This document shows, one piece after another, positions 22,699-60,833 of a stretch of DNA of 64,000 nt. The notes beneath the pieces were generated by a model that saw nothing but the letters and a program-made list of their open reading frames with translations, did not search any database and was not told the origin of the DNA. Location of the stretch: NCBI GenBank assembly GCA_005772855.1, contig SXIK01000117.1, forward strand, positions 1 to 64,000. Direction: 5' to 3'. Source of the stretch: Planctomycetia bacterium. GTDB lineage: Bacteria; Planctomycetota; UBA8108; SXIK01. Position numbers and translations under genes: made by a program. Positions within the stretch are counted from its first letter, which is position 1, and each line of letters starts with the position of its first letter.

Positions 22699-22802
22699 GA
22701 TGCCCTGCGCAGCCATGACTGGGATCGTGACCAATGCTCCCTCACCATCGGCGCCGGAGGCGCCGGGTTCGGGGGAAGTCTACCTCCCCGGCCAGGAGTA
22801 CA
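22699..22802 (-). repeat. Dispersed intergenic element, copy 2
   Basis: Read on the minus strand it starts TGTACTCC, then GGGGAGGTAGACTTCCCC (hairpin), CGGCGCCTCCGGCGCCGAT (core), GAGCATTGGTCACGAT and TCATGGCTGCGCAGGGCA. Each block lines up with copies 3-5. It lies in the 230-base gap between the SRPBCC gene and the YhdT-like gene, with the element's left end toward the SRPBCC stop. Unlike copies 3, 4 and 5, no gene starts just beyond its left end. Confidence 0.65.
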
Positions 22803-25163: not shown

Positions 25164-25247
25164 TCCACAAGTGAAAAAGTTCCCGCGAGTTACAGCAGAC
25201 CCGAGTGCAAGGGCCGCAAGGAGTGAGTCTGGAATCAGCCGCCTGGC

Positions 25248-25343
25248 TACACTCCGCGCGGCCATGATGAGGACATCTTGAGTAACGCCCGCCCACGATC
25301 GGCGCCGGAGGCGCCCGGCGCTTCTCGAGCGCCGAGGAGGATA
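25248..25343 (-). repeat. Dispersed intergenic element, copy 3 (provides a ribosome binding site)
   Basis: On the plus strand it runs from TACACTCCGCGCGGCCATGA through GGACATCTTGAGTAACGC and GATCGGCGCCGGAGGCGCC to GCCGAGGAGGATA. The ends are imperfect inverted repeats (TACACTCC and GGAGGATA). Its left end in the family orientation points to the next gene: GAGGAGG at 25334-25340 lies 8 bases before the ATG at 25349 and is the only plausible Shine-Dalgarno for that gene. It lacks the GGGGAGG hairpin of copies 1, 2, 4 and 5, but its CTCGGCGCTCGAGAAGCGCC part matches an internal piece of copy 4. Confidence 0.65.
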
Positions 25344-25348
25344 GCTTC

Positions 25349-26425
25349 ATGAGTAGGTCACGCATCGACGCCTTCATGGCGGTCGCCAGTGTGCTGTTCC
25401 TCCTGGTGAGCGCATTGTCCGGCTGTGTCTCCGTGCGAGTGACCCCCGAGGCCATCCAGGCCTCGGGGGCTTCCTCGGAGGTCCGGGCCCACGTCGAGAG
25501 CGTGTGGCGCGAAGCCGTAGGCATCCTGAACGATTTTCTTTCCTCGCCTTACAATCTTTCCTTGCCCCGCGGACGGTACGTGCTGGACTATCGAGAAGGG
25601 CTTCGTTTTGAGACGGAGCAAGGTGTTTGGCCCATCACGGTTACTTGCGACTGGCTGGGCGACCTGATTCACCACCTCGGTGGCCAAGCTGCCAGCATGA
25701 GTCGAGGTTTCGTGGTTCCAGGAACTCATGGACCCACGGGGGACCGGACCATCGACAACACTCTGTTTCAGCGCATGAACGGCGAGTGGAAGCCCGCTCA
25801 CAGAGTCGCTTCGGTCACCGTGCATGAGACAGGCCACCTCGTGCATGGCAGGGGAATCTTGAAGAACGTGGGGTACGCTTGCGAGGTGATTTTCCTCTTC
25901 CGGAGGTCCAGCAACTCAGCGGAAACTCGCCCCCGCAGCATCTCTGTCGAGTTTCAAGTCTATTTGCTCGTCAACGGTTACGAGATTCCTGGTCTGAAGG
26001 GTCTCAACGCCGTTGACCTACTGGGATTTGCGGTGCGGGACCTGCTCGAGGGAGAGGGAGGTCACGGACCCTATCTCGAGCCAAGTCCGCAGCCACCTCT
26101 GCCAGGACGCCGAAGCCTTTCTGGACCATCCTCTGCCTGCTTGGCGGTCACGGAGTTCGATCGCTGGATTGCGCACGCTCACCTGGTTTCCGAGTGGTGC
26201 GTCCGGGCTTGTTCCTCGCTGGCCGAAGGGAGACTGCGCACCCAATTTGAACGTCAAAGCGAGGAACTTCTTCGGCTTACTCTGCTGGTCAGTGCGATGC
26301 TGCGTCGGGGTGGTCATGACGTGGCTGAGTTGAGTGAGGCCAGGGCCAGAGTTCTTGAGGCGTTCGAGAGAGCCGACAGAGCTCATCGCTCCCGGCTGGA
26401 CTTCACAGCGGACCAGTCGGAATGA
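25349..26425 (+). CDS. Lipoprotein with HExxH metalloprotease-like motif
   Basis: The 358-residue product has a clear lipoprotein signal (FLLVSALSGC, Cys about 26). Residues about 155-170 read SVTVHETGHLVHGRG, an HExxH zinc-binding motif with a third histidine five residues after the second, in a context where a soluble peptidase domain could fold. No named family fits the flanks, and no downstream Glu/His ligand can be assigned with certainty. The C-terminal 80 residues are helical and charged. It follows another lipoprotein gene; both are plus strand but separated by a repeat element that supplies its ribosome site. A protease role is inference. Confidence 0.7.
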   Translation: MSRSRIDAFMAVASVLFLLVSALSGCVSVRVTPEAIQASGASSEVRAHVESVWREAVGILNDFLSSPYNLSLPRGRYVLDYREGLRFETEQGVWPITVTCDWLGDLIHHLGGQAASMSRGFVVPGTHGPTGDRTIDNTLFQRMNGEWKPAHRVASVTVHETGHLVHGRGILKNVGYACEVIFLFRRSSNSAETRPRSISVEFQVYLLVNGYEIPGLKGLNAVDLLGFAVRDLLEGEGGHGPYLEPSPQPPLPGRRSLSGPSSACLAVTEFDRWIAHAHLVSEWCVRACSSLAEGRLRTQFERQSEELLRLTLLVSAMLRRGGHDVAELSEARARVLEAFERADRAHRSRLDFTADQSE

Positions 26426-36226: not shown

Positions 36227-37369
36227 TCAGTGAAGCCGCTCCACAGGTGCCGACGCGCTCGGGCTTGATTGGCCCGGGCCGCCGAAGGCCCAGGAGTAGC
36301 TTACGAGGATCAGGTAGTCGGCGAAGGCGGCGTCACCGTGCCGCTGAGGCTCTGCTCGATCGTCTGGAACGCTGCGCTGGCGGTTTCTGTAGAGCGCGAC
36401 GGGCGCGCTCACTCCCAGGGTATGGCCCTTCCAGCTCCAGGCAATCCCGGGCTCGATCGCAATTGCGTATCCAGGACGACGGAAGCCCTTGGAAGACCCA
36501 ATCAGGTCCCGCACGGGGACGCCTTCGAGGCGGGCGGCGAGGCTGAGGGAGAGCCCGTACTGTTCGAGGAACGGGATCGGTCTTGCCAGGCCCACCTTGG
36601 CGAGATACGCGTCGGTGACGGACATCTCTTGCTCACCAGAGCCGGTCCTGAAAGTTGGTACTCCGTTGGTGGCTCGCGGGTTTAGAAGGTAGCTCCCCTG
36701 AGCAAACCCCGTGAATTTCTCAAAAAAATTGTAAAAACCTTGCATGCCCAGGATGGCCCCGAAGCTGCCGTCGCCCGGCTGGATCGACTGGTCGGCGGTC
36801 CTTACCTCCCGGGTGAAGACGTTCCCCGTGCGAACCGTCGCCTTGTGACGCACGTCGTCCTGGCCAGTCGGTAGCTTCACCCCAAGGCTCAGACCGATGT
36901 TTCCCTTCAGGAACTCTTCCGGGTCAAGGATCCAGCCGCTTCCCTGGATGACCATGTCGCCGATTCCTTCCGCTCGCTGCAAGTCGCGGTCGATAACTTC
37001 GCGTTGAGCGTTGCGGACCGGTGATGATCGGGTCGCAAAGAGAACGGGCAAGCTCACGGATCCGTTGACGCGCTTCGTGAACGCATAGGTGAGGCCGAAG
37101 TCCATCAGATGGACCTTGTTAATCACCTGGCTGTGCTCCCGCTCCCGCTCCTTGTCCTCATGGCTGCCTGTGAAGTGCCGATCGGACTTCTGGTAGCGAT
37201 AACCATAGTTGAACTGCCACGTCCCTGCTTCGAGGTAAGGGCTTCCCTGAGTGCCAAGCACGGGCACCCCCTGGCGGGCAGCCACTCAGCCTTGAGCGTT
37301 GGCCGAAGAGATGGGCAGAAAGGACCCTGCAATGATTCCGCTGACGACGACAAGGACGCGCTGATACAC
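36227..37369 (-). pseudogene. Outer-membrane beta-barrel protein interrupted by a stop after the signal peptide
   Basis: From the GTG at 37369 the frame reads 27 codons of a good signal peptide (VYQRVLVVVSGIIAGSFLPI, then SSANAQG), hits TGA at 37288-37286, and continues in the same frame for 352 residues to 36227. The long part is an aromatic-rich beta-barrel of the phenol-degradation transporter (MetA) type: FNYGYRYQKSDRHFTG, MDFGLTYAFTKRVNGSVSLP, LSLGVKLPTGQDD, ending YLILVSYSWAFGG. A GTG directly after the stop at 37285 could restart translation, but without an export signal. The start codon is inside the inverted end of repeat copy 4. Sequencing error or stop readthrough are alternatives. 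Confidence 0.6.
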
Positions 37370-37588
37370 TCCTCGCAGGGGAGGAAAACCTCCCCCGCAC
37401 CGGCTGCCTGGCGGCGTCCCCTCCGTCCCGCGCTTCGAGCCCGCTCCGGGGGTCAGGGCTCCCGCCTTGGTCGCCCTGAGGCCCCTCCTCGGTGCTCGGC
37501 AAGGGCCGGGCGCCTCGGGCTCCGATTCCGGCGCCGATGATGGGTGAGCCTTGGTCAAGATGCCACAATCATGGCCGTGAGGAGTGTA
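37365..37588 (+). repeat. Dispersed intergenic element, copy 4 (longest, with perfect inverted ends)
   Basis: It starts TACACTCCTC (37365-37374) and ends GAGGAGTGTA (37579-37588), a perfect 10-bp inverted pair. From left to right: hairpin GGGGAGG/CCTCCCC, about 100 bases absent from copies 2 and 5, a piece (CTCCTCGGTGCTCGGCAAGG) that matches the left part of copy 3, then GGCGCCGATGATGGGTGAGC and ATCATGGCC blocks shared with all. Its left end contains the GTG start of the interrupted barrel gene on the minus strand. The combination suggests one element inserted into or merged with another. Confidence 0.7.
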
Positions 37589-46986: not shown

Positions 46987-47976
46987 TCAGTGGTCGGCAA
47001 TACCGTCCGCGGCGGGGGCTTTCCACTGAGCTGGCTTCTCCTGGTGGGTTCTGTCAGTGGTGATCAAGACGCCGGCAAGAATGATGACCGCCGCCGCCTC
47101 GAAAGTACTCCTGTGGATGGCCTCACCATTCAGAAGCCACCCGAGGAAAAGTGCAATCACGGGGTTGACGTAGGCGTACGTGGACACCTTGGCGGGCGCG
47201 ACGTGCTGAAGCAGCCAGACGTAAGCCATGTAGGCCACCATGGAAACGAGCACCATCAGGTAAAGCATCGACCCCCATGACCTGAGAGGGACGGCTGCGA
47301 GGTCGAACTCCGAGAATTCGTGAAGGAACAGAGCCGCTCCGAGGAGCAGTAGCCCTCCTGCTGCTTGCTGCATTCCGACGTTGAGGATCAAGGAGTCGGG
47401 AAGCTTGGCGGTTCGGCAGTAAGTCGTTCCCAAAGCCCAGGCAACTGGACCCAGAAGTGCCGCGGCGACGGCGTATGGGTCGAGTGAGGATTCGTGGACG
47501 GAGGCACCCACCATGGATGCAGTTTTCGAAAACGCCAGAAGCGCCAGGCCCAGACATCCCGTGAGGAGACCCGAGACGATCCGAAGGCTAGGCCGCTTCC
47601 CTCCCTTGCTGAGCCAGTTGAGCCCAACGATCCACAACGGCGTCGGGGCGATGAAGAGACATGTGACGCCGGAAGGCAGCTTTTGCGATGCCCACGCGAA
47701 GCAACCGTTGCCGAACAAGATGAGCAGAGCGCCTGCGACGAATGCCGAGCGCCACTGAGCAGGCGCCGGCCCGGGGATGCCCCGCCACGATGCGAAGGCG
47801 ATCAACAGGCATCCAGGCACCAAGAATCTCACGCCAGCCATGATCAGCGGAGGAAAGCCATCGAGGGTCCACTTGATCATCAGGTAGGCCGAGCCCCAGA
47901 TGAAGTAGATCGCAGCGAATGCCGCCAGCACCTTCCAGATGGGTGGCCCCGAGCTTCCAGGGAGCGATGCTTTCAC
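46987..47976 (-). CDS. EamA-family drug/metabolite exporter
   Basis: The product of 329 residues from the GTG at 47976 (AAGGA 9 bases upstream) or 340 from a TTG at 48009 has ten hydrophobic segments. It has the two EamA repeats: AAIYFIWGSAYLMIKWTLDG with the family's conserved WGS and SRTP-like loops, and later LYLMVLVSMVAYMAYVWLLQ followed by YAYVNPVIALFLGWLL. It resembles the YedA/RhtA branch exporting amino acids or small metabolites. The gene starts just beyond the left end of repeat copy 5 on the minus strand. Confidence 0.88.
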   Translation of the reverse strand: MKASLPGSSGPPIWKVLAAFAAIYFIWGSAYLMIKWTLDGFPPLIMAGVRFLVPGCLLIAFASWRGIPGPAPAQWRSAFVAGALLILFGNGCFAWASQKLPSGVTCLFIAPTPLWIVGLNWLSKGGKRPSLRIVSGLLTGCLGLALLAFSKTASMVGASVHESSLDPYAVAAALLGPVAWALGTTYCRTAKLPDSLILNVGMQQAAGGLLLLGAALFLHEFSEFDLAAVPLRSWGSMLYLMVLVSMVAYMAYVWLLQHVAPAKVSTYAYVNPVIALFLGWLLNGEAIHRSTFEAAAVIILAGVLITTDRTHQEKPAQWKAPAADGIADH

Positions 47977-48011: not shown

Positions 48012-48117
48012 TATACTACTCGCGGGAGAGGAAGTCTTCGCCCGCACCGGGGCGTCGCCGGCGCCGATGGTCGGTGAGCGTTGGCCAGGATGTCCCAATC
48101 GTGGCCGTGCGGTGTAT
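48012..48117 (+). repeat. Dispersed intergenic element, copy 5
   Basis: It starts TATACTACTCGCGGGAGAGG, continues GAAGTCTTCGCCCGCACCGG, the core GCCGGCGCCGATGGTCGGTG and GCCAGGATGTCCCAATCGTG, and ends GCGGTGTATC. Blocks and order match copies 2-4. The ends are degenerate inverted repeats (TATACTAC and GTGTATC). Its left end lies 35 bases from the exporter start on the minus strand. Confidence 0.65.
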
Positions 48118-48324
48118 CTGTCGACCCCGTGAGCCCGCCGGCACAAATAAGCGTGGGCGCGTGGCCTTGAGCGGCTCCCGAAAGTGTCACAGTCTTCGGG
48201 GCACTTCAGCCTTTCCCGGTGCTTGCCCCAGCGTTTCTTCGTCGGACGTGGACGCTTCTTGCTCTCCTTCTTCGCGTTGTGGCATGCAGGGTGAAGTATC
48301 GGCAAGGAGTTGCCTGCGGAAGCA
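48118..48324. other. Gap without a recognisable gene
   Basis: 207 bases lie between repeat copy 5 and the CusA-like stop; the whole interval between genes is 348 bases. A minus-strand frame starting at 48305 encodes a lysine-rich 30-residue stretch and then runs into the repeat; I do not consider it supported. No terminator was seen for the efflux operon. Confidence 0.35.
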
Positions 48325-60794: not shown

Positions 60795-60833
60795 CGGTGC
60801 CGGGCAGGCCTGCCTCCCCAGCGAGGAGAATGC
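60795..60833 (-). repeat. Possible partial copy of the dispersed element
   Basis: CGGTGCCGGGCAGGCCTGCC, then TCCCCAGCGAGGAGAATG, matches the hairpin-and-left-end part of the family (as in copy 4, where CCTCCCCTGCGAGGAGTGTA occurs). The GGCGCC core and right part are not seen here. A gene starts on the plus strand 130 bases further on. By-eye match of about 35 bases only. Confidence 0.3.

Follow-up and report, generated by a model that had tools for sequence, protein, structure and literature searches.

The start codon of a putative lipoprotein gene in the window (the whole 64,000-nt stretch of planctomycete DNA analysed here) lies just past the end of a dispersed repeat, and the terminus of this repeat appears to provide the only Shine-Dalgarno (SD)-like sequence of the gene. 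The repeat belongs to a MITE-like family with many copies in the same genome, and one end of the element, the right, stands closely before start codons more often than expected. We consider it likely that the family is a selfish MITE whose terminus forms a portable ribosome-binding site, and that it is tolerated or has been co-opted at a subset of gene starts.

The lipoprotein gene and copy 3 of the repeat

The original prediction, that copy 3 of the repeat supplies the SD sequence of the lipoprotein gene, was borne out at the sequence level: GAGGAGG occupies 25334–25340 of the forward strand, and the ATG at 25349 begins 8 nt after it, via ATAGCTTC. The features of this locus are as follows.

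25164–25247, +: non-element leader of 84 nt, running from the upstream dockerin-containing gene to the element
25248–25343, +: copy 3 of the MITE-like element (nhmmer against the family model, positions 1–93, E 2.1e-24)
25248–25258, +: left terminal inverted repeat of copy 3, TACACTCCGCG (family consensus TATACTCCGCG)
25330–25343, +: right terminus of copy 3, CGCCGAGGAGGATA (family consensus CCGCGAGGAGTATA; matches the terminal repeat CGCGAGGAGTATA)
25334–25340, +: SD-like GAGGAGG, 8 nt before the ATG (AGGAG peaks 5–11 nt before the ATGs of this genome)
25349–26425, +: gene for a putative HETGH (HExxH) lipoprotein of 358 aa with lipobox LSGC

At 96 nt, copy 3 is a version of the 152-nt element that has lost internal sequence. 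We read it as an internal deletion because the family model matches only up to position 93, within the internal CGAGGAGG, and the ATA that follows continues the terminal repeat; a deletion between two direct copies of CGAGGAG probably brought the right terminus up against the internal CGAGGAG. The same join, with GAGGAGTACA, is present in another contig (C34:12540).

No Pfam family matched the lipoprotein, and its start was chosen between two in-frame ATGs. The gene finder, which used coding score and ignored SD sequences, favoured the ATG at 25376. We regard the ATG at 25349 as the better of the two on sequence grounds, because it is preceded by the SD and adds an SRSR n-region ahead of the lipobox LSGC, both of which the ATG at 25376 lacks. 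The sequence supports the end of the element as the sole SD-like sequence of the gene. In the predicted mRNA fold most of this SD is paired (unpaired 0.2–0.3), so that it may be a weak initiation site.

A relative from the same family (G001) provides a comparison without the element. Its lipoprotein orthologue (48% identity) lies downstream of the same neighbour gene, and the leader between these two genes is 83 nt long, has a GGAGG of its own ahead of the ATG and lacks the element, as against an 84-nt leader plus the element in the window. Because the two leaders are too diverged for alignment, we infer rather than observe where precisely the element inserted at this locus and whether TA was duplicated. 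The element would here have come to lie between the ancestral leader and the ATG, with the SD supplied by the element.

A family of MITE-like elements

A search of the host genome with 25200–25352 as query found 42 places at E≤0.001, and the right-end 15-mer CTCCCCCGCGAGGAG occurs at 104 sites genome-wide (up to 1 mismatch) versus 5 for the reversed control; the repeat is therefore no chance match. Copies were counted in 2.29 Mb of the 5.03-Mb genome plus seven extra loci from the 25200–25352 query. A family-model search recovered 78 copies with both ends in the 2.29 Mb, which with the 7 from the extra loci makes 85, and extrapolation from about 80 in 2.3 Mb gives roughly 170 full copies genome-wide. 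Copies of 152 and 107 nt are the commonest; all but one of the 85 copies are intergenic (84/85), the remaining one lying within a predicted gene. The element is bounded by terminal inverted repeats, TATACTCCGCG...CGCGAGGAGTATA, with TA at both ends. Its copies are short (below about 400 nt), non-coding, numerous and dispersed, and with these terminal repeats the family is, judged by its sequence, a MITE-like, non-autonomous, TA-ended mobile element. The most conserved stretch is internal, GGGACATC.TGACCAA (alignment columns 25–40), rather than in the terminal repeats, and may be a candidate protein-binding site.

The window holds further members of the family:

22699–22802, +: further copy, 104 nt, right end toward the stop of a gene
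37365–37588, −: copy 4, 224-nt form with internal insertion; GTG 37285 lies 79 nt past its right end
48012–48118, −: copy 5, 107-nt form; likely start GTG 47976, 35 nt past its end, with its own AGGAAGGA
60795–60832, +: right-end fragment of the same family (model match E 0.0045 in the window)

It had been proposed that a gene begins immediately beyond the same end of copies 3, 4 and 5. Once element ends and gene starts were corrected, this geometry held for copy 3 and was lost for the other two. The full copy 4 element reaches 37365, not 37484, and its gene starts 79 nt past that end. At copy 5 the proposal is weak: a TTG at 2 nt is probably not a start, and the GTG at 47976 opens a normal EamA-transporter N-terminus.

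Gene starts at the right end of the element

SD sequences are evidently used in this genome, as SD 5-mers occur in 21% of unambiguous ATG leaders versus 5% of control positions. For the positional analysis, genes were called by coding score alone, without SD information. The copies have no overall orientation relative to gene starts: reading outward from the right end, 55 starts and 29 stops are met (n=84), and from the left end 61 and 22 (n=83). Within short distances the right end stands out. A start codon lies 2–10 nt past it in 11 of 85 copies (copy 5 was counted here and later reclassified), when 2.34 are expected over all intergenic positions (p 2e-5); the same band past the left end holds 3/85. 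This band was picked after the first sample had been seen, and the p-values are descriptive. In that first sample, starts concentrate 4–6 nt past the right end (6 versus 0.4 expected), a spacing that sets AGGAG 8–10 nt before the ATG, inside the SD peak of the genome.

The excess was recovered without the window and with model-aligned right ends only (7/64, p 0.0019; 8 with locus L005, p 0.0004). L005, with a GTG at 5 nt, had been missed by the script, which counted only an ATG or a predicted start. The contrast between right and left ends taken alone gives p 0.05 to 0.08, or p 0.085 without the window and fuzzy ends. Held-out contigs plus the extra loci (23 copies) yielded 0 such starts by script and 1 GTG start by eye, where 0.6 would be expected at the null rate and about 5 at the rate of the first batch. 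The batches are heterogeneous and the effect size is uncertain, because 10/44 copies in the first contigs and 1/41 in the rest carry such starts. A whole-genome pattern count gave a modest peak, with 5 of 27 right-end matches at 9–10 nt spacing, one of the five in a contig outside the sample (C157); the left end has no such peak.

The genes at right ends are conserved. They encode oxygen-dependent coproporphyrinogen oxidase (hemF), an FAD oxidoreductase, glycerol-3-phosphate dehydrogenase (gpsA), purine nucleoside phosphorylase (PNP), a HinT/HIT protein, phosphoglycolate phosphatase, MutS2 (mutS2), a choline-kinase-like protein, a family 2 glycosyltransferase (GT2), a protein without an assigned family and the lipoprotein. 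In the nine of these proteins with family matches, the family profiles begin at residues 2–11, and since the profiles match from the first residues, protein sequence independently confirms the start codons. In addition, GAGGAG is intact at 9/11 right ends near starts versus 32/74 of the others (p 0.023), and left ends have no difference in GAGGAG retention by proximity to a start.

These figures bear on the possibility that the copies are passive debris, whose SD-like end happens to precede a few starts and is used by genes that have no alternative, with no real enrichment. About 87% of copies are not at a start, the script found none among the held-out copies, and overall orientation bias is absent, all of which fit this account. 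We nevertheless consider it unlikely, given 11 starts against 2.3 expected, their clustering at 4–6 nt, their restriction to one end, the retained GAGGAG, and a value of p 0.002 without the window and fuzzy ends.

The left end has an excess of its own, further out: starts lie 11–19 nt beyond it in 7 cases versus 2.2 expected (p 0.007; for example C93:145519, C205:29453 and C77:12364), too far for GGAG to serve as a normal SD. This weak excess, the TA-rich ends of the element and the insertion of a second family at TATA (below) would suit transposition with a preference for TA sites a short way ahead of start codons, the SD being incidental. Such a target-site preference strikes us as a distinctly poor prospect: the right-end excess persists under a null restricted to TA sites (10 versus 1.5, p 2e-6), and the end that shows it is the one whose SD is stronger, an outcome not expected from target choice alone.

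The element as a possible leader RNA

The original prediction had also raised an oriented 5' untranslated regulatory element. In this account the repeat would be a cis-regulatory RNA, similar to a riboswitch or leader, with the SD as its expression platform and with a regulon of 5' UTRs in one orientation. The consensus does fold strongly, the SD would be hidden in a terminal stem of TATACTCC with GGAGTATA, and the interior is highly conserved. However, this reading fails because the copies have no overall orientation toward gene starts; many face gene stops, and most lie away from starts. Their size and modules vary, the element is built like a MITE, the covariation term is unfavourable (+1.2 kcal/mol, 22 copies), with a double change in 6/36 pairs, and the copy 3 fold is no better than shuffles (z −0.91). 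An Rfam scan of the window gave no match. We regard the leader reading as already largely refuted and give it very little credence.

The idea that the element brings expression signals holds in part. Translation signals are supported by the SD end and its excess at starts; for transcription, a promoter search of the left part of the element gave no sigma-70-type match.

Transposition and related elements

The flanks of the copies show no match above shuffles at 2–9 nt that would indicate a target-site duplication, a test to which TA at both ends would be invisible. No cognate transposase with matching ends was found in the host genome (96% complete, fragmented), with ends compared for one DDE_3 element; DDE_Tnp_1 matched two places and DDE_Tnp_1_2 none. 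An IS630-type (DDE_3) element in contig C126 was rejected as a partner, its 35-nt terminal repeats (AGTGCCGTCTTTCATAAGTTCCTGTGCATTTCG) being unrelated; it is the only one of its kind, and its reading frame is seemingly shifted or disrupted in the first third. A REP/REPIN system with RAYT was also rejected, the Y1 transposase (PF01797) having 0 matches in the host genome. A TA-targeting DDE transposase would presumably have moved the element.

A second, related family (B; about 180–382 nt, TATACCGCACG...GCGCGAGGTATA) has the same TA ends as the family described above (A), and at several sites it lies directly against, or interrupts, the terminal TATA of a family A copy. Insertion of B at the TA of an A end is a suggestive hint of TA target-site duplication, and family B is apparently the younger. 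It probably breaks the assembly, since it is often found at contig ends. Near-identical family B ends (TATACCGCACGCGGGCAGTGATGAG...CTCACGTGTGGGCGCGCGAGGTATA) occur at C211:7574, C239:18392, C29:33842, C44:5360 and other sites.

An exact left-half pattern of family A had no match in other public species, and a right-core pattern matched in Planctomycetota MAGs only, which places the host among the planctomycetes. In a genome of the same order (G007), the hairpin core sits inside an element whose terminal repeat differs (GGCGTGGTTC), as if the internal core were a reusable module.

A proposed portable ribosome-binding site

Together, these observations suggest the following course of events. A TA-ended, non-autonomous MITE would have colonised the intergenic DNA of this planctomycete. 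The right terminal repeat of the element, read outward as CGAGGAGTATA, would be by accident a strong SD sequence. Where landing or internal deletion sets the right end about 4–6 nt (range 2–10) before a start codon, the end would displace the native ribosome-binding site and supply a new one. Such insertions would be tolerated or favoured, with GAGGAG kept, and other copies would be ordinary debris. Ribosomes would then use the SD at copy ends, and selection would account for the excess. In its full form, this proposal states that a mobile repeat carries a portable ribosome-binding site, that well-spaced insertions survive or are favoured, that translation initiation of at least 10 conserved genes has been taken over, and that selection keeps the SD; to this stronger version we give slightly less than even weight.

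A portable ribosome-binding site would account for the ability of a MITE to insert directly ahead of a conserved gene and leave it active, and would offer a testable case of selfish DNA rewiring translation in a phylum with little genetics. A caution also follows: where a repeat has conserved ends in front of start codons, these can be misread as motifs of regulatory RNA.

Comparison with known repeat systems

Mobile elements are well known as carriers of promoters and terminators. A ribosome-binding site brought by a mobile element is hardly documented in the open-access literature, and a 2024 review of the functions of prokaryotic MITEs (PMC10969869) mentions neither ribosome binding, nor Shine-Dalgarno sequences, nor start codons.

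The present family resembles REP/REPIN palindromes in being of very high copy number, palindromic and intergenic, but REPs are 20–40 nt long with GTAG or CGTC tags, and the host genome has no Y1 transposase. Like the pneumococcal BOX and SPRITE repeats it is modular and dispersed. SPRITEs occur preferentially at the ends of genes and are presumed to have been recruited as terminators (PMC3049150); co-option among BOX and SPRITE concerns terminators or start codons, and the BOX-encoded ORFs lack good Shine-Dalgarno candidates (PMC3049150). The family also resembles bacterial MITEs with 5'-TA-3' ends and short inverted repeats, a known class that includes Correia/NEMIS, RUP and ERIC (Delihas 2007, PMC2229807). 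These share with the present family a length of 100–200 nt, short terminal inverted repeats, TA termini, a mainly intergenic location and high copy number, and, also counted as a likeness, stable predicted stem-loops and effects on neighbouring transcripts. The planctomycete family differs in having no shown sequence relation to them and no demonstrated target-site duplication, and in a terminus that doubles as a Shine-Dalgarno sequence.
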